Source: Methylobacterium sp. NMS14P (GTDB lineage Bacteria; Pseudomonadota; Alphaproteobacteria; Rhizobiales; Beijerinckiaceae). Taken from it: a DNA stretch of 64,000 nt. Below, one piece after another: positions 5,225-60,610 of this stretch (position 1 is its first letter; every line of letters begins with the position of its first letter). The notes beneath the pieces were generated by a model. It saw nothing but the letters and a program-made list of their open reading frames with translations, had not been told where the DNA came from and made no database searches. The stretch spans positions 4,336,501 through 4,400,500 of the forward strand of contig NZ_CP087106.1 of NCBI RefSeq assembly GCF_028583545.1, read 5' to 3'. A program made the position numbers and the translations under genes.

Positions 5225-5237
5225 TCCGAGCTCCTGT

Positions 5238-5328
5238 CGTCTTTGCGAGCGGAGCGAAGCAACCCAGGCCGCGTCACGATGGCCGACGCCGCGCAACCCT
5301 GGGTCACGTCGCTGCGCTCGTGATGACG
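5238..5328. repeat. family I dispersed palindrome, copy 1
   Basis: Imperfect inverted repeat of about 91 bp. The left arm (5238-5268) carries TGCGAGCGGAGCGAAGC followed by AACCCAGG; the right arm (5298-5328) carries CCCTGGGTCAC, GCTGCGCTCG and ends in TGATGACG. It lies between the 3' ends of der (+) and the YbdK-type ligase gene (-), so it could act in RNA as a bidirectional stem-loop. The same arms recur at least six more times in this window. Confidence 0.9.
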
Positions 5329-5346
5329 GCGCGGGTGCGGCCCCGC

Positions 5347-13042: not shown

Positions 13043-13049
13043 GCGCTCC

Positions 13050-13142
13050 CGTCTTTGCGAGCGCGGCGAAGCAATCCAGGGATGCGCCACCTTTGGTCAC
13101 GGCCCGCTGCCCTGGGTTGCTTCGCTCCGCTCGCAAAGACGG
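13050..13142. repeat. family I dispersed palindrome, copy 2 (inverted orientation)
   Basis: Arms at 13050-13081 and 13110-13142, between radA (+) and moaA (-), which converge. The right arm carries the GCTCCGCTCGC form that other copies show (as reverse complement) in their left arm. This copy therefore seems inserted in the opposite orientation to the rest. The left arm has GCGCGGCGAAGC, one change from the usual sequence. Confidence 0.9.
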
Positions 13143-14704: not shown

Positions 14705-14745
14705 GGGCAGCCGCTCTCGCTTACCCTGGCGCTAGCCCTGAGCAT

Positions 14746-14838
14746 CGTCCTTGCGAGCGGAGCGAAGCGATCCAGGGCAGCACCCAGTCTTCCTGCCTCG
14801 CGCATCCCTGGGTCGCTTCGCTGCGCTCGCGATGACGG
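14746..14838. repeat. family I dispersed palindrome, copy 3
   Basis: Arms at 14746-14780 (TTGCGAGCGGAGCGAAGC, GATCCAGGGCAGC) and 14806-14838 (CCCTGGGTCGC, TTCGCTGCGCTCGC, GATGACGG). It lies 41 bases after the DUF971 gene and before the cupin gene, both on the plus strand. This is one of two compact copies not placed between converging genes. Confidence 0.9.
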
Positions 14839-18211: not shown

Positions 18212-19936
18212 ATGACCGTGGACACCGATGTGCGGGGTGAGGATACGGAGCCGACCCGGCAGCCAAGGCCGCCGGAAGCCGAACGGATCAATCCCCCCTC
18301 CCGGCGCCGCGTTCTTCGAACAGTCCTGGCCGCGGCTGCCGGCACGGTTCTACCTAGCGCGACTGATCTGAATGGGTCCAGAACGTGGGCCGGGCCGGCG
18401 CTTCCGCCGCAGGACGGCGCGATGACCTTCGAGACTCTCTCGGCCGAGGCGGCGCGCCGCGCCGCCGCGCCCTACGCCCCGCCCGCCGAGGACCTGCCGC
18501 CGGCGCTCGCCGCCCTCGACTACGACGGCTACCGGGCGATCACCTTCCGGCCGGACGCCGGCCTGCGGCTCGGCGCGCATTTCAGCGCCCAGCTGTTCCA
18601 CCGCGGCTTCCTGCAGCGCCGGCGCGTGGCGCTCCACCTCCAGCCGCTCCGCGGGCCCGCGCGCCCGATCCCCTACGACACGCGGCTGTTCGACCTGGGC
18701 GCGCGGCTCGCCGGCCAGAGCTTCGCGCCGGATCTCGGCTTCGCGGGCTTCCGCCTGCACTACGCCTTCCCGGACATGCCGGCCTGGCGGCCGAAGGGCT
18801 TCCAGGAGGAGTTCCTCGTCTTCCTGGGCGCCTCCTATTTCCGCCTGCGCGCGGCCAACCAGGAGTACGGGCTCTCGGCCCGGGGGCTCGCCATCGGCAC
18901 CGGCGCGCCGGAAGGCGAGGAATTTCCCGACTTCGTGGCCCACTGGATCTGCGAGCCGGAGCCGGAGGCGCGCACGCTCACGGTGCTCTCGCTGCTCGAC
19001 AGCCCGAGCGTGGCCGGCGCCTACCGGTTCGCGATCGCGCCCGGCGATCCGGCCCGGATCGCCGTCACGGCGGCGCTCCACCCGCGCCGGGCGCTCCCGA
19101 AGCTCGGGCTGGCGCCGCTCACCAGCATGTTCCTGTACGGCCAGAACGGGCCCGGGGCGCGGGGCGCCAAGCCCTTCGACGATTTCCGGCCCCAGGTGCA
19201 CGATTCCGACGGGCTTTGCGTCGCGGCCGGGAGCGACCCGGCACGGATCGACCGGATCTGGCGCCCCCTGGTCAACGGGCGCGCGCAGCCGCAGATCTCC
19301 GCCTTCGCGGCCCGGCCGCTCGCCGGCTTCGGGCTGCTGCAGCGGGAGCGGAGCTTCGCGGCCTACCTCGACGTGGAGGCGCGCCACGAGGCGCGGCCGG
19401 GCCTGTGGGTGGCGCCGGATTCCGCCGGGGGCGCCTTCGCGGACGGCGCCGTACAGCTCTTCGAGATCCCGTCGGGCGAGGAGTACATGGACAACATCGT
19501 GGCGGCCTTCGTGCCGGCGGCCCCGGCCCAGCCCGGCGCGCCGCTGCACGTCGCCTACGGCCTGACCACGGTGGGGGCCGAGCCCGTGCCGGCGATCCCG
19601 GAGGCCGCCCTCGCCCGGGTGACGTCGACGCGGCTCGGCTCGGCGGAGCGCCTGCGCCCGTCGAACCCGCCCGACCCGCGGCGGCGGCTCTGCGTGATCG
19701 ACTTCGAGGGTCCGGGCCTGCCGAAGGGTCCCGACGAGGCGGTCGCCGCGGAGGTCTCGGCCAGCGCCGGCACGCTGCACGAGCCGGTGGCCAACTTCGT
19801 GCCGCAGACCGGCGGCTGGCGGATCTACGTCGAGTGGCGCCCGCCGGAGCCGGTGCCGCCGGGCGACGTCGTGCTGCGCGCCCGGCTGGTCCGCGGGACG
19901 ATCCCCCTCAGCGAGACCTGGGACGCCGCCGTGTAG
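18212..19936 (+). CDS. opgG: glucan biosynthesis protein OpgG/OpgD (MdoG/MdoD), Tat-exported
   Basis: A 574-residue periplasmic protein required for osmoregulated periplasmic glucan synthesis. The leader holds a twin-arginine motif SRRRVLRTVLAAAAG around residues 30-44, so export by Tat is likely. In E. coli that is a property of OpgD, while OpgG uses Sec; the name opgG is therefore provisional. Family motifs include YDGYRAITFRPDAGLRLG, FAGFRLHYAFPDMP and EFLVFLGASYFRLRAANQ. The ATG at 18212 gives the full Tat leader. A family I palindrome begins five bases after the stop. Confidence 0.9.
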   Translation: MTVDTDVRGEDTEPTRQPRPPEAERINPPSRRRVLRTVLAAAAGTVLPSATDLNGSRTWAGPALPPQDGAMTFETLSAEAARRAAAPYAPPAEDLPPALAALDYDGYRAITFRPDAGLRLGAHFSAQLFHRGFLQRRRVALHLQPLRGPARPIPYDTRLFDLGARLAGQSFAPDLGFAGFRLHYAFPDMPAWRPKGFQEEFLVFLGASYFRLRAANQEYGLSARGLAIGTGAPEGEEFPDFVAHWICEPEPEARTLTVLSLLDSPSVAGAYRFAIAPGDPARIAVTAALHPRRALPKLGLAPLTSMFLYGQNGPGARGAKPFDDFRPQVHDSDGLCVAAGSDPARIDRIWRPLVNGRAQPQISAFAARPLAGFGLLQRERSFAAYLDVEARHEARPGLWVAPDSAGGAFADGAVQLFEIPSGEEYMDNIVAAFVPAAPAQPGAPLHVAYGLTTVGAEPVPAIPEAALARVTSTRLGSAERLRPSNPPDPRRRLCVIDFEGPGLPKGPDEAVAAEVSASAGTLHEPVANFVPQTGGWRIYVEWRPPEPVPPGDVVLRARLVRGTIPLSETWDAAV

Positions 19937-19940
19937 GCTC

Positions 19941-20031
19941 CGTCATCGCGAGCGGAGCGAAGCGACCCAGGGCAGCGCGACCTGGATGAACGTGGCGCCG
20001 CTGGATTGCTTCGCTGCGCTCGCAAGGACGG
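19941..20031. repeat. family I dispersed palindrome, copy 4
   Basis: Arms at 19941-19979 (ATCGCGAGCGGAGCGAAGC, GACCCAGGGCAGCGCG) and 20001-20031 (CTGGATTGCTTCGCTGCGCT, CGCAAGGACGG), between opgG (+) and a small minus-strand gene. The two arms differ at the outer end (ATCGCGAG versus TTGCGAG), so pairing is imperfect there. Confidence 0.9.
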
Positions 20032-20037
20032 CGTGTC

Positions 20038-20238
20038 TCAGGCCGTGCGCTGCTCCTGCTCCAGGCGGCGAGCCAGGCGGGTGGCGCCGTAGACCTCGCT
20101 GAGGCGGCGGCGGGCCGCGGAGACCGGCGGGGCCTGCCGCTCGACATGGGCGGCCGCGATGACGCGCAGGGCGGCGGCGACCGAACGCTCCAGGCGACGC
20201 TCGGCCTGGACGGCCACGTCCCGATGATTGTCCAGCAT
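20038..20238 (-). CDS. small helical hypothetical protein
   Basis: A 66-residue protein starting at the ATG at 20238, with a good ribosome binding site (GAGGGA) seven bases upstream. An in-frame ATG at 20310 lacks this site. The sequence is Arg/Ala/Glu-rich and looks fully helical (residues 8-35 and 41-63), with no membrane segment. I do not recognise it. It ends seven bases from palindrome copy 4 and lies 122 bases upstream of the end of zwf, both on the minus strand. Confidence 0.55.
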   Translation of the reverse strand: MLDNHRDVAVQAERRLERSVAAALRVIAAAHVERQAPPVSAARRRLSEVYGATRLARRLEQEQRTA

Positions 20239-20360
20239 GTGATGATCCCTCGTGCTGCGCCGTCGCCGCCCTCTGGCGGGGCGGTATCCGGCAGCGCCGA
20301 CAGATTTCACATCCGGCTTGACCGCATCAAGGCAGCTTGGCCGTGGGCCGCCGAACGTCC

Positions 20361-21833
20361 CTACCGCAGCTCCTCGTGCCAGGTCCGGCCGTCGCGCTCG
20401 ATCAGCGCGATGGCGGCAGTCGGCCCCCAGCTCCCGGCCGGGTAGGGCCGCGGCGCCTCGGGCCGGTCGGCCCAGGCCTTGAGCACGCCGTCCGCCCAGG
20501 CCCAGGCGGCCTCGACCTCGTCGCGGCGCATGAACAGCGTCGCGTTGCCGCGGACCACGTCCATCAGCAGGCGCTCGTAGGCGTCGGGGTAGCGCTGCTT
20601 GAAGGTCTCCTCGAAGGAGATGTCGAGGTCGGTCGGGCGCAGGCGCAGGCCGCCGGGGCCGGGATCCTTGGTCATCACCTCGAGCTTCATGCCCTCCTGC
20701 GGCTGCAGGCGGATCACGAGGCGGTTCGGCTCGCGGCCGAAGGCCTCCTCGGGGAAGATCGAGAACGGCGAGGCGCGGAACTGCACCACGATCTCGGAGA
20801 GCTTCTGGGGCAGGCGCTTGCCGGTGCGCAGGTAGAACGGCACGCCCGCCCAGCGCCCGGACTGGATCTCGACCTTCATGGCCACGAAGGTCTCGGTCCG
20901 GCTCTCGTGGCCGAGCTCGGCGAGGTAGCCCTCGACCGGCTTGCCGTCGACGGCGCCCGCCACGTACTGGCCGCGCACGGTGACCGCCTGCACGTCGTGG
21001 GCCGTGATCGGCTTGAGGGCGCGCAGGACCTTCAGCTTCTCGTCGCGGACCGAGTTCGCCTCGAGATTGAGCGGGCTCTCCATGGCGGTCAGGCAGAGCA
21101 GCTGCAGGATGTGGTTCTGCAGCATGTCGCGCATCGCGCCCGACGTGTCGTAGTAGCCGGCCCGGCCCTCGACCCCCACCGTCTCGGCGACGGTGATCTG
21201 GACGTGGTCGATCACGTCCGAGGTCCAGAGCCGCTCGAAGATCGTGTTGGCGAAGCGGAGCGAGAGCAGGTTCTGGACCGTCTCCTTGCCCAGATAGTGG
21301 TCGATCCGGAAGATCTGCGACTCGGGGAAGACCTCGCCGACCGCGTCGTTGATCGCCTTGGCCGATTTCAGGTCCTTGCCGATCGGCTTTTCCAGCACGA
21401 CGCGGGACTTCTCGCCGACGAGCCCGTGGGCGGCGAGGTTGCGGCAGATCGAGCCGTAGAGGTCGGGCGAGGTGGCGAGGTAGTAGGGCCGGACCTGGTC
21501 GGGCCGCTCGTCGAGCTTGGCGACGAGGTCGGTCCAGCCGCTGTCGCCGGCACCGTCGACCGCGACGTAGTCGACGTGGTCGAGGAAGCGGTTGAGCATG
21601 TCGTCGGACAGGTCGGACGCCGGCACGAAGCGCTTGAGCGCGTCGCGGGCGTGCTCGCGGAAGGCGTCGAGGGACAGTTCCGAGCGCGAGGCGCCGATGA
21701 TCCGGCTGGTCTCGGGGATCTGGCCGTCGCGGAATCGGTAGAACAGGGCCGGCAGGAGCTTCCGCGCGGTCAGATCGCCGGTCGCGCCGAACACGACGCA
21801 GTCGAAGGAAGCGACGGGGATGATCGTGGCCAA
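20361..21833 (-). CDS. zwf: glucose-6-phosphate dehydrogenase
   Basis: Oxidises glucose-6-phosphate to 6-phosphogluconolactone with NAD(P)+. It has the cofactor loop FGATGDLTARKLLPALF at the N-terminus and the active-site RIDHYLGKE around residue 180. I place the start at a TTG at 21833 (LATIIPVASFDC), preceded by GGGAG at a suitable distance. This gives 490 residues, the family norm; an in-frame ATG at 21884 would add 17 residues without support. No pgl, edd or gnd gene is adjacent, so it appears to be a single-gene unit. Confidence 0.95.
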   Translation of the reverse strand: MATIIPVASFDCVVFGATGDLTARKLLPALFYRFRDGQIPETSRIIGASRSELSLDAFREHARDALKRFVPASDLSDDMLNRFLDHVDYVAVDGAGDSGWTDLVAKLDERPDQVRPYYLATSPDLYGSICRNLAAHGLVGEKSRVVLEKPIGKDLKSAKAINDAVGEVFPESQIFRIDHYLGKETVQNLLSLRFANTIFERLWTSDVIDHVQITVAETVGVEGRAGYYDTSGAMRDMLQNHILQLLCLTAMESPLNLEANSVRDEKLKVLRALKPITAHDVQAVTVRGQYVAGAVDGKPVEGYLAELGHESRTETFVAMKVEIQSGRWAGVPFYLRTGKRLPQKLSEIVVQFRASPFSIFPEEAFGREPNRLVIRLQPQEGMKLEVMTKDPGPGGLRLRPTDLDISFEETFKQRYPDAYERLLMDVVRGNATLFMRRDEVEAAWAWADGVLKAWADRPEAPRPYPAGSWGPTAAIALIERDGRTWHEELR

Positions 21834-21992
21834 GTGCGGCTCCCGGGTGTCGTGCGCTGGTCTCGTGCGGCGGCTGCGTCGCACTGACCTAGCCCGTGTG
21901 CAAGGGCTTCGCCAGACGAGGGGCGCAGGCCAGCGCTGTCTGGTTCAGGGGGCGGCTGGGACAGGTCCGAGCAAGTCCACGCTGCCACGCTC

Positions 21993-22393
21993 CGTCCTTG
22001 CGAGCGCAGCGAAGCAACCCAGGGCAGCGCGGCGGCGCCGAAGGACAGCACGATGCGCGAGCCGGCCGTCTACATCATGGCGAGCCGCCGCAACGGCACG
22101 CTCTACACGGGCGTGACCGCGAATCTCGCCAGGCGGGTCTACGAGCACCGGGAGGCGATGCTTCCCGGTTTCACGAGCCGCCACGCTTGCAAGCGCCTGG
22201 TCTGGTACGAGCCATACCCGACCATGGCCGAAGCCATCACCCGCGAGAAGCGGATCAAGGCGGGCTCACGGAAGAAGAAACTCGCGCTGATCGAGGCGAT
22301 GAACCCGGACTGGAACGACCTGTATCCCGATCTCGCGTGAACGGGTCCGGCGTCGCGGATCCCTGGATCGCTTCGCTGCGCTCGCAAGGACGG
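21993..22393 (+). mobile_element. family I element carrying a GIY-YIG nuclease gene
   Basis: A 401-bp unit bounded by the same inverted arms as the compact family I palindromes. The left arm is at 21993-22031 and the right arm at 22361-22393. Over the outer 33 positions the arms match as inverted repeats at about 31, including AGCGCAGCG on both sides, where compact copies mismatch. In place of the usual loop of about 30 bp it carries a complete GIY-YIG gene. A further lone left arm lies 45 bases to the right. No target duplication is obvious. That it is mobile is an inference. Confidence 0.7.
22053..22340 (+). CDS. GIY-YIG nuclease domain protein (UPF0213 type)
   Basis: A 95-residue single-domain GIY-YIG endonuclease. 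The core strands are VYIMAS and LYTGVT (the GIY and YIG elements), followed by LARRVYEHR with the catalytic Arg and AITREKRIKAGSRKKK with the Glu that binds metal. The C-terminal MNPDWNDLYPDL is typical of the small UPF0213/YhbQ group. It begins 21 bases inside the left arm and ends 20 bases before the right arm of a family I inverted repeat, with no other gene in the unit. A role in spreading the repeat is an inference. UPF0213 genes also occur as solitary genes of unknown role. Confidence 0.93.
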   Translation: MREPAVYIMASRRNGTLYTGVTANLARRVYEHREAMLPGFTSRHACKRLVWYEPYPTMAEAITREKRIKAGSRKKKLALIEAMNPDWNDLYPDLA

Positions 22394-22408
22394 CGTTGTC
22401 CGGATTAT

Positions 22409-22427
22409 GGCGGCCCATTAGGCCGCC
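22409..22427. terminator. short perfect hairpin between palindrome arms
   Basis: A seven-base stem GGCGGCC / GGCCGCC with a five-base loop (CATTA). It sits between the right arm of the GIY-YIG element and the next lone left arm. There is no T-run, so termination is only a guess. Confidence 0.35.
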
Positions 22428-22438
22428 GTCACACACTT

Positions 22439-22481
22439 CGTCCTCGCGAGCGGAGCGAAGGGACCCAGGGCAGCGCGAGGC
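22439..22481. repeat. family I solo half-palindrome
   Basis: A left arm only (CGTCCTCGCGAGCGGAGCGA, then GGGACCCAGGGCAGCGCG), with no matching right arm before the end of the SDR gene nine bases away. It may be a remnant of a second element next to the GIY-YIG unit, or of a larger composite. Confidence 0.8.
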
Positions 22482-22489
22482 CGCGCGGG

Positions 22490-23332
22490 TCAGCCCTCCA
22501 TGTACCGCTTGAACGCCTCGGCGTGGTCCGGATGCCAGCGCGAGAGGGCGGGCCGGTTCTCGACGATGTCGCCGGACGCCCAGGCGATCCGCTTCGCGTC
22601 CTGGGCGCGGGTCGTCTCGTTGTCGGGGCAGAGGATGTAGAAGTCGCCGGCCGCGAGCCGCTCCAGCAGGAAGGCCACGGTCTCGTCGGGCGTCCAGGCG
22701 CCCGCGGGCTTCTCGGCGACGCCGCGGGCCTTGGTGAGCCCGGTGTAGACGAAGCCCGGGATCAGCAGGTGGGCCGTGGTGTGGCAGCCCTCCCGGTTGC
22801 GCAGCTCGTGGGCGAGCGCCTCGGTGACCGCCTTCACACCCGCCTTCGAGACGTTGTAGGGCGCGTTGCCCGGCGGCGTGGTGATGCCCTGCTTCGAGCC
22901 GGTGACGACGATCGCCCCGAGCTTGCCGCCCTCGATCATGCCGGGCGCGAAGGCGTGGATGCCGTTGACCACGCCGCCGAGGTTGGTGTCCAGGATCCGC
23001 GCCCAGGTGTCGGCGTCGGAGAACAGCTTCCCGCCGGCCTCGATCCCGGCATTCAGCATCACCAGGGCGGGCGGCCCGCTCTTGGCGACGGCGGCCGCCA
23101 GGGCCTCCACGGCGCCCCGGTCCGACACGTCGGTGGGCACGGCGCGCACCTCGACGGCGGCGAGTTCGGCGACGGCGGCCCGGGCCGCGTCCAGGGCCGG
23201 CCCCGGCAGGTCGGCGAGCCAGACGTTCATGCCGGCCCGGGCGAAGGCCTGCGCGGCGGCGAGCCCGATGCCGCTCGCGGCGCCGGTGACGACCGCGCTG
23301 CGGCCCGGGCTGACCGCGGGGTGCTGGCTCAT
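22490..23332 (-). CDS. SDR family NAD(P)-dependent oxidoreductase
   Basis: A 280-residue classical SDR with cofactor motif TGAASGIG (residues 17-24), LNAG in ALVMLNAGIEAGG, and the catalytic YNVSK near residue 160 in NAPYNVSKAGVKAVTEAL. The ITTPPGN segment just before it is unusual for the family but not informative. The substrate is unknown. It converges on the family I repeat cluster and is divergent from the xylanase-like gene, with 156 bases between starts. Confidence 0.9.
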   Translation of the reverse strand: MSQHPAVSPGRSAVVTGAASGIGLAAAQAFARAGMNVWLADLPGPALDAARAAVAELAAVEVRAVPTDVSDRGAVEALAAAVAKSGPPALVMLNAGIEAGGKLFSDADTWARILDTNLGGVVNGIHAFAPGMIEGGKLGAIVVTGSKQGITTPPGNAPYNVSKAGVKAVTEALAHELRNREGCHTTAHLLIPGFVYTGLTKARGVAEKPAGAWTPDETVAFLLERLAAGDFYILCPDNETTRAQDAKRIAWASGDIVENRPALSRWHPDHAEAFKRYMEG

Positions 23333-56263: not shown

Positions 56264-56302
56264 GGCGCTGATACGCTTTTTGGTTGTCCGCTTCGGTCCC
56301 AC

Positions 56303-56395
56303 CGTCTCTGCGAGCGGAGCGAAGCAACCCAGGGTCACGCCAGGCCTTCCGAGGTCGCGCTGCCCTGGGTCACTTCGCTTCGCTCGTGATGACGG
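56303..56395. repeat. family I dispersed palindrome, copy 5
   Basis: Arms at 56303-56340 (CTCTGCGAGCGGAGCGAAGC, AACCCAGGG) and 56363-56395 (CCCTGGGTCAC, TTCGCTTCGCTCGTGATGAC), between the small exported protein gene (+) and the DUF1194 gene (-). The right arm has TTCGCTT where other copies have TTCGCTG. Confidence 0.9.
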
Positions 56396-59461: not shown

Positions 59462-60552
59462 GCGGGGCGGCGCGGCACATCCCGGTCCTCGTGGTCCTGC
59501 CGCCGCGCGCGCTGCTGCTCGACCTCGCCGGCCCGCTGGAGGTCCTGCGGATCGCCGGCACCGTCCAGGACCGGGTCGGCTTCGCGGTGGCGTACGCGGC
59601 GCCGCGGGCGCGCACCCGCTGCTCGATCGGGCTCGACCTGGGCGGTGCCGGACCTCTGCCGGATACGGTGGCCGATGGCACGATCGTGATCCTGCCGGGC
59701 TCCGCGACGTGGGTGCTCGGCGACGCGCCCGACGCGGCGGCCGACGCCGACGCGGAGGCCGAGATCGTCGCGTGGCTCCGCGCCGTCATCCGGCCGGGCC
59801 ACATCGTGGCGACCGTGTGCGAGGGCGCGCTGCTGGCGGCGCGGGCCGGGCTCCTCGACGGCTACGCCTGCACCACCCACCATGCCAGCTGCGACCGGCT
59901 GACGGCGGCGGCGCCCCGGGCCCGGGTCCTGGAGAACCGCCTGTTCGTGCAGGACCGCGACCGGTACAGCAGCGCCGGCGTCACGGCCGGCATCGACCTG
60001 ATGCTGCACCTCGTGGCGGAGTGGGCGGGCCCGGCGACGGCGGTCGCCGTCGCGCGGACGCTCGTCGTGTACATGCGGCGCGGGCCCGACGATCCCCAGC
60101 TCTCGCCCTGGCTCGAGGGGCGCAGCCATCTGCACCCGGCGGTGCACCGGGCCCAGGACGCGATCGCCGCCGACCCGGCCCGGGACTGGTCGCCGGCGCT
60201 GCTAGGCCGGGTTGCGGGCGCGAGCCCGCGCAACCTCGCGCGGCTGTTCCGGCTCCACGCCGGCATGACCGTGACGGACGCGGTCAACCGGTCCCGCGTC
60301 GCGCTGGCCCGGGATCTGATCGCGCAGAGCGACCTCGGCCTGGAGCGGGTCGCCGAACGGGCCGGCTTCGGCTCCGCCCGGCACATGCGGCGCGTCTGGC
60401 GGCAGTTCCACGCGGCGGCGCCGTCGAGCCTGCGCACCGGATCCTCCGACGAGACCTCCGCGCAGCTCATCCAGCGGCCTGTCGGCCGGGGTTCGGTACG
60501 GCCCCCCGCGAGACAATCGTCCTTGCGAGCGGAGCGAAGCAATCCAGGGTAG
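59458..60552 (+). CDS. GlxA family transcriptional regulator (DJ-1/PfpI plus AraC domain)
   Basis: A 364-residue protein starting with GTG at 59458. The N-terminal half is a DJ-1/PfpI-like domain with Cys in ATVCEGALLAARAGLLDG; the C-terminal half has an AraC-type double helix-turn-helix (ASPRNLARLFRLHAGM, then LERVAERAGFGSARHMRRVW). The last ten residues ([10 protein letters not shown]) and the stop codon are encoded by the left arm of palindrome copy 6, so the natural end has been replaced by the repeat. Coupled with the isochorismatase gene. Confidence 0.9.
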   Translation: MSGAARHIPVLVVLPPRALLLDLAGPLEVLRIAGTVQDRVGFAVAYAAPRARTRCSIGLDLGGAGPLPDTVADGTIVILPGSATWVLGDAPDAAADADAEAEIVAWLRAVIRPGHIVATVCEGALLAARAGLLDGYACTTHHASCDRLTAAAPRARVLENRLFVQDRDRYSSAGVTAGIDLMLHLVAEWAGPATAVAVARTLVVYMRRGPDDPQLSPWLEGRSHLHPAVHRAQDAIAADPARDWSPALLGRVAGASPRNLARLFRLHAGMTVTDAVNRSRVALARDLIAQSDLGLERVAERAGFGSARHMRRVWRQFHAAAPSSLRTGSSDETSAQLIQRPVGRGSVRPPARQSSLRAERSNPG

Positions 60553-60610
60553 CGCTCCGCTTTCCGGCGTCGCGCGACCCTGGGTCACTTCGCTGCGCTC
60601 GTGATGACGG
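60518..60610. repeat. family I dispersed palindrome, copy 6, overlapping a gene end
   Basis: Arms at 60518-60553 (TTGCGAGCGGAGCGAAGC, AATCCAGGG) and 60578-60610 (CCCTGGGTCAC, TTCGCTGCGCTCGTGATGAC). The left arm supplies the last ten codons and stop of the GlxA-type gene. It lies before the dihydropyrimidinase gene on the same strand. Confidence 0.9.

Follow-up and report, generated by a model that had tools for sequence, protein, structure and literature searches.

A 95-codon gene for a GIY-YIG nuclease lies between the inverted arms of a dispersed palindromic repeat in Methylobacterium sp. NMS14P, and comparison with its relatives indicates that this enzyme and this repeat family almost certainly belong together as cognate partners. 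We consider it likely that a CGTC-tagged REP family has its dedicated nuclease in the product of this gene, and that the REP–gene–REP block is a REPtron-like unit in which a GIY-YIG enzyme replaces RAYT. At the level of sequence, we found a general association of gene and repeat, matching of enzyme clade to repeat type, correlated abundance, common borders, and presence or absence of the unit as a whole. The whole 64,000-nucleotide stretch that was analysed is referred to as the window.

A GIY-YIG gene between REP arms

An earlier note on this DNA had proposed that a GIY-YIG gene is nested within a dispersed palindrome. This was borne out by the Pfam match of the product and by the similarity of the two arms (Table 1); the match scored 49.7 bits against a curated cut-off of 22.6, and at E 0.1 PF01541 was the only Pfam family found in the protein, with no transposase domain. 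The arms are also those of six compact palindromes in the window, of 92–94 bp each, and over the core 33 bp they pair better with each other than the arms of any compact copy do, both as claimed. The claim that AGCGCAGCG is paired perfectly held as well, since a self-facing AGCGCAGCG occurs in the gene-bearing copy and in none of the six compact ones. When longer arms are considered (21992–22037 and 22348–22393), complementarity is 85% across 46 bp. The gene is hence surrounded by terminal inverted repeats, a trait of insertion sequences.

Table 1. REP arms, REP dimers and the nuclease gene in the window
Feature	Position	Strand	Evidence or comparison
Compact REP dimer, arms 24/33	5237..5329		Missing in relative G071; right-end remnant only in G043
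Compact REP dimer, arms 30/33	13049..13142		Missing in G029; truncated in G071
Compact REP dimer, arms 28/33	14745..14838		Arm comparison
Compact REP dimer, arms 27/33	19940..20031		Internally truncated in G098
Left REP arm; CGTC tag outward, CCCAG tail toward gene	21992..22024	+	31/33 match to right arm
GIY-YIG nuclease gene, 95 codons	22053..22340	+	Pfam PF01541, 4.7e-13
Right REP arm, inverted copy, CGTC tag outward	22361..22393	-	31/33 match to left arm
Lone REP arm downstream of gene; direct repeat of left arm, spacing 446 bp	22438..22474	+	Repeat comparison
Compact REP dimer, arms 26/33	56302..56395		Arm comparison
Compact REP dimer, arms 25/33	60517..60610		Arm comparison

The flank-similarity score of the window gene was 28.5, and none of 635 pseudo-gene positions in the window reached 20 (maximum 17.5). 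Genome-wide, the arm pattern gave 142 + 134 matches (276), compared with 0 + 2 for a reversed control pattern. A chance origin of the arms around the gene is therefore excluded. The 6.88-Mb genome has one other PF01541 match, in an open frame of 691 residues which, because of its length, is probably UvrC. A search of window positions 19500–23000 against Rfam at E 0.1 found no family; PHROGs at 0.01 gave no family and NCBIfam nothing above its cut-off.

The AF2 model of the 95-aa protein is a single domain with a pLDDT of 95.4. Residues Y7, Y18, R28, H32, E65 and N84, which we take to be those of the active site, were retained in 180–188 of 189 non-redundant loci.

The repeat fits the CGTC-tagged REP superfamily

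CGTC-tagged REPs were described by Di Nocera, De Gregorio and Rocco (2013), who reported them from five phyla, with predominance in Alphaproteobacteria, and defined them by a CGTC tag at one end, a CCA tail and an arrangement mostly in inverted dimers, the unit having an 8–9 bp stem and a 4–5 nt loop (PMC3733652). By tag, tail and dimer layout, the window repeat fits this superfamily. Its arms begin with CGTC (as CCGTC) and end with CCCAG, so that both the CGTC tag and the CCA tail are present, and the GTAG tag of the REPtron is not. The layout in the window, with its six compact dimers, the pair around the gene and a single isolated arm that the earlier note had left unmentioned, is mostly one of inverted dimers, as for CGTC-tagged REPs. 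Single arms of the window family gave folding z values of +1.9 and −0.7 and are not stable alone, only the dimer being stable; a CGTCATTCCGGC-type unit taken from beside relatives of the gene formed a perfect hairpin with a z of −4.7.

The same paper says of CGTC REPs that the superfamily 'apparently lack[s] a dedicated transposase', and neither 'GIY-YIG' nor 'Methylobacterium' occurs in its main text (PMC3733652). Among the matches listed in our literature search, no title or abstract joined GIY-YIG genes with REPs, which is weak evidence, since preprints and most subscription journals lie outside the coverage. Both words are present in the searched text of PMC9465073, there only as separate rows of a gene list.

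Repeat-flanked nuclease genes are widespread

Relatives of the nuclease were counted in genomes by means of searches and sequence stretches. Within the genus, 52 of 111 genomes had a match at E 1e-10. Most of them carry a single copy, and nine copies with stop codons were among the matches listed. Matching inverted repeats stood on both sides at 47 of 65 loci, compared with 0 of 635 pseudo-gene positions in the window; the 65 include the window's own locus and remained from 67 after one place that was only a piece of the L025 gene and another at a contig start were dropped. At the level of the class, 141 of 385 sampled genomes had at least one match at E 1e-12, and the highest number in a single genome was 11.

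Named genomes, when scanned, yielded at least 579 relatives. The best 80 were kept, and two of these had too short a flank. Matching inverted repeats were found at 43 of the 78 testable loci and at 3 of 1266 controls, with a hairpin finder too strict for the window's REP family. The titles of these best 80 were those of alpha-, beta- and gammaproteobacteria and of a few MAGs (Bacteroidetes, Nitrospirota, Kuenenia and others). A contig titled Candidatus Kuenenia carries a locus identical to one in an alphaproteobacterial genome (L077 and L187), which makes the title doubtful; odd MAG titles are therefore untrustworthy.

The loci were then pooled. One of 199 loci, whose gene was not relocated, and five more without both flanks were excluded, as were nine of 198 without 300 bp on each side. 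Removal of duplicates (9) and of the window's own locus left 181 loci with 300 bp on each side, and either repeat orientation was allowed. Of these 181 non-redundant loci, 134 had matching repeats on both sides and 47 had no detectable matching pair, whereas only 3 of 1339 control positions had such a pair. CGTC hairpins stood on both sides at 109 of 181 loci and 17 of 1339 controls. These data strongly support the proposal of the earlier note, a pairing like that of REP and RAYT with a GIY-YIG enzyme. The outcomes that it had named as speaking against this, a clade mostly unflanked or random genes flanked equally often, are the opposite of what was observed.

Enzyme lineage and repeat type are matched

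Two clades of the enzyme could be distinguished, clade A being 71–100% and clade B 52–62% identical to the window protein. Clade A genes lie mostly between TTGCGAG-type repeats and clade B genes mostly between TTCCGGGG-type repeats or other stems, often with the CGTC tag retained. Repeat similarity tracked protein similarity (Mantel rho 0.45, p = 0.002), as compared in 16,834 non-syntenic pairs drawn from 185 non-redundant loci. Repeats were similar in 92% of non-syntenic pairs at 80% protein identity or more, in 35% at 60–70% and in 0% below 45%.

Within a genome, repeats match across one locus but not between paralogs. In 12 genomes with at least two paralogs, the upstream and downstream repeats of the same gene scored 35.8 on average, compared with 11.0 for mismatched ones (p = 5e-5), and the same p value was obtained for G233 alone, with nine paralogs examined. 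This alphaproteobacterial genome has 11 nuclease matches, nine of which were read; five are clearly flanked on both sides by matching repeats of their own, and the other four, with own-pair scores between 8 and 14.5, lie close to background (mean 9.5). A 400-kb sample of G233 held only 1–4 hairpins per stem, and its tagged hairpins numbered 106, compared with 96 for a reversed-tag control.

Repeat abundance followed the cognate enzyme, in statistics in which related genomes are non-independent data points. Genus genomes with a clade A gene had a median of 91 A-REPs and those without it 2 (p = 3e-8), while the median of B-REPs was 22 with a TTCCGGGG-flanked clade B gene and 1 without (p = 2.7e-7; this set was picked by the repeat beside the gene and so contains a few copies by design, and p is 7.1e-6 for all clade B genomes). 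The cross-associations, A gene with B-REP and B gene with A-REP, were null (p = 0.37 and 0.49). In the class, exact TTGCGAG-type repeats numbered five or more in 26 genomes, of which 21 carry the nuclease and five lack it, compared with carriage by 37% of the 385 overall (p = 2.5e-6). Fourteen of the 29 genus genomes with at least 20 A-REPs had no clade A gene, and 8 of the 23 with a clade A gene had fewer than 20 A-REPs. Such orphan A-repeats could be left from a gene that was lost once they had spread, as at the zwf site described below, and independence of the two would explain them as well.

Within the stretch 67–75 of the enzyme, residues 70, 71, 72 and 75 read A-G-S-K/R with TTGCGAG-type and K-W-R-W with TTCCGG-type repeats, nearly without exception. 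At residue 71, G was present in 80 of 81 TTGCGAG-type and W in 53 of 54 TTCCGG-type loci, a count that omits 6 loci of a third class and 48 unclassified ones. Residue 71 thus has the look of a specificity switch, but the tree holds only two supported independent changes, and the residue changes too in about one of them. The pattern may therefore be one of ancestry.

Borders, gain and loss of the unit

When non-syntenic copies were compared, 261 of 397 homology ends fell no more than 5 bp from the outer edge of the repeat, compared with 4% at random, the edges being taken from each locus's own upstream and downstream repeat (335 of 484 prior to duplicate removal). A stricter hairpin finder, which missed the arms of the window family, still placed 50 of 228 ends within 10 bp (4% at random). 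The spacers between gene and repeats are part of the unit that non-syntenic copies have in common. Two loci at unrelated sites of one genome (L011 and L033 in G062) share −246 to +58 around the gene, and both ends of this stretch fall inside repeats.

On plasmids of Shinella WSC3-e and HZN7, the REP–gene–REP block lies between an amidohydrolase and a nitrilase gene. The block is missing in S. sumterensis and H4-D48, where no REP remains, and in S. zoogloeoides XJ20 the amidohydrolase and nitrilase genes are directly adjacent. The XJ20 nitrilase is nearer to that of WSC3-e (85.8% identity) than is the nitrilase of S. sumterensis (78.3%), so that a single gain is a simpler account than two losses. 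At the amidohydrolase end, XJ20 and S. sumterensis are not told apart (86.4 vs 85.8%).

The window site, the interval between zwf and an SDR gene, was compared in 12 relatives. Seven of them have the unit in common with the window, and the gene-bearing copy at this site is hence old. G043, G103 and G071 have no gene and one lone arm each, and the gene is missing in G093 and G095 too. G043 is shorter by 446 bp, the exact spacing of the direct repeats at 21986 and 22432, so its gene was probably removed by recombination between REPs, an ancestral lone REP being the alternative. In G006 and G041 the gene of this interval is inverted relative to the window, as would be expected from recombination between its arms.

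Locus pairs shared their neighbourhood in 11 of 11 cases at 95% protein identity or more, 64 of 78 at 85–95%, 68 of 207 at 75–85% and 3 of 288 at 65–75%. These comparisons suggest that descent in the genus is mainly vertical with occasional moves, and mostly vertical for the window locus.

Compact dimers

The earlier note had explained the compact copies as internal deletions of the long one, and for this we found no support. The spacers of the six compact dimers are 26–28 nt long, and in five of them the longest match to the gene interior was no better than in shuffled spacers; the sixth has a 12-mer in common with the gene interior, adjoining the right arm. Among relatives, compact dimers were gained, lost or truncated (Table 1). 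Target-site duplications were looked for at seven dimers and one lone arm, eight sites in all, with up to five relatives for comparison; none could be read, the flanks being too diverged or the sites partial deletions.

A second subfamily and other relatives

A second GIY-YIG subfamily, of the L067 type, is 42% identical to the window protein. Matching inverted repeats were present at 14 of 20 loci of this type (L067, L263–L282), compared with 0 of 160 controls. At many of these loci the repeat is a different palindrome, TCATCCTGAG...CGAAGGATGA.

Two further relatives were noted. One, on the cyanobacterial plasmid p1 of Planktothrix agardhii (L238, 2501–2785), lies amid GTCATTCTGAGTGAAACGAAGAATCTC repeats, with a type IIL restriction gene on one side and a gene for a DISARM helicase on the other. 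The other, from Sinorhizobium meliloti Ak57 (L236, 2489–2773), is flanked by CGTCATCCTCGGGCTTGACCCGAGGATCCA repeats, which in our judgement resemble the RIME elements of rhizobia; its 3.7-Mb 'pSymB' record, on which gltA and lpxB are found, has the appearance of a chromosome.

A proposed mechanism and its alternatives

In our view the enzyme very probably acts on its own REP DNA, and we lean, less firmly, towards the view that it drives REP dispersal. The enzyme would recognise the folded REP dimer of its own family, as a hairpin or cruciform, and would cut at or beside it, its fold being nearest to that of the structure-selective nuclease Slx1; host replication or repair would then place copies of the dimer at new sites, either alone or together with the gene. 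Compact dimers would be non-autonomous units served in trans, which could persist after the enzyme gene is lost. GIY-YIG enzymes hydrolyse DNA, and no covalent protein–DNA intermediate is expected. Joining would therefore have to come from the host, unlike in the case of RAYT, which joins DNA via a tyrosine (PMC8266576).

A broader reading, to which we give an even chance, is that transposable elements include a new class to which CGTC REPs belong as the non-autonomous component. Its sole protein would be a single-domain, hairpin-specific GIY-YIG hydrolase, and the element would spread by cutting and host repair with no strand transfer by the enzyme. The second subfamily would do likewise for the unrelated TCCTGAG...CGAAGGA palindromes, and a general principle would thus stand behind many of the commonest bacterial palindromes.

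It is also conceivable, although unlikely, that the nuclease has a housekeeping or control function: it would trim, resolve or restrain REP hairpins or REP-bearing RNA and sit in its substrate for regulation, while REPs spread otherwise. The fold of the nuclease is nearest to Slx1, a structure-selective nuclease of branched DNA, with UPF0213, UvrC and I-TevI also similar, and the gene is under purifying selection (median dN/dS 0.16, range 0.07–0.81 in 55 pairs), both of which would suit such a role. So would its occurrence in the genus, mostly as one copy and mostly vertical, as reported for tnpA_REP, which likewise makes occasional moves (PMC8266576). However, an enzyme that restrains REPs should leave fewer cognate REPs, not more, and the patchy presence in the genus, the nine listed copies with stop codons and the up to 11 copies per genome are element-like.

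We regard homing as a rather improbable explanation. The GIY-YIG gene would then be a parasite landing in REP dimers, a cut dimer being repaired from a gene-bearing one via the arms, and REPs would spread by other means. Of the sites without the gene that can be compared with a homing target, those in Methylobacterium have a lone REP; however, the lone arm of G043 is equally well explained by the deletion between direct repeats, and the Shinella site without the unit has no REP. Moreover, the gene–repeat spacers belong to the shared unit, homing offers no reason for REP numbers to go with the clade of the cognate nuclease, and a scan of viral contigs gave just 36 relatives.

RAYT or another transposase might instead move CGTC REPs, with the GIY-YIG gene only as cargo between two of them, and Di Nocera et al. 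(2013) did suggest that other transposases may serve these REPs (PMC3733652). This appears highly unlikely to us. A search covering the Y1 family found no Y1 (RAYT-type) transposase in 9 of 12 REP-rich genus genomes tested, among them the window's genome, with its 276 arm hits and no match to PF01797, and G085, with 400; RAYT acting in trans in the window's genome is thus unlikely, and clade-by-clade matching of repeats is not expected of cargo. Finally, that a small gene merely happens to lie between two REPs, which are largely intergenic (PMC3733652), can be dismissed almost entirely, as loci with a hairpin on at least one side had it on the second side too in 109 of 143 cases for the nuclease and 17 of 262 for controls, and own repeats matched within genomes (p = 5e-5).

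Relation to known systems

Since each version of the enzyme tends to sit within a matching version of the palindrome, there is a strong case for the nuclease as the partner that a widespread class of bacterial repeats has so far lacked. The pairing offers a specific candidate for CGTC REPs, in the form of a 95-aa protein and a 92-bp DNA. If it is true, palindromic repeats have been tied twice, via unrelated enzymes, to a small cognate nuclease, and for the 5907 proteins of the family (E 1e-6) the repeat adjoining each gene becomes the predicted substrate. REPs with a cognate enzyme are already known; the GIY-YIG version possibly represents a new mechanistic class.

GIY-YIG homing endonucleases, such as the I-TevI and Seg types, have the catalytic domain in common with the window protein. 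They differ from it in that the latter is a single domain of 95 aa without an extra DNA-binding region and has cognate repeat families in the genome. Penelope-like retroelements also carry a GIY-YIG domain, and the likeness is that of a GIY-YIG enzyme serving a mobile element; in contrast to them, the annotation of the four plasmid loci that were read includes no reverse transcriptase.

With the CGTC-tagged REP superfamily, the window family shares the CGTC tag, the CCA tail, the inverted dimers and the predominance in Alphaproteobacteria; the difference is that a nuclease gene lies inside the dimer here, whereas PMC3733652 describes no associated transposase. The closest parallel in organisation is the REPtron, formed by RAYT (TnpA_REP, a Y1 HUH enzyme) with GTAG REPs and REPINs. 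In both, a small gene is flanked by inverted dispersed REPs, the enzyme lineage is matched to the REP and REP abundance follows the enzyme, inheritance is mostly vertical, and REPs also occur without the gene. The two differ in the enzyme, Y1 there and GIY-YIG here, in the tag, GTAG there and CGTC here, and in the up to 11 nuclease matches per genome found here.
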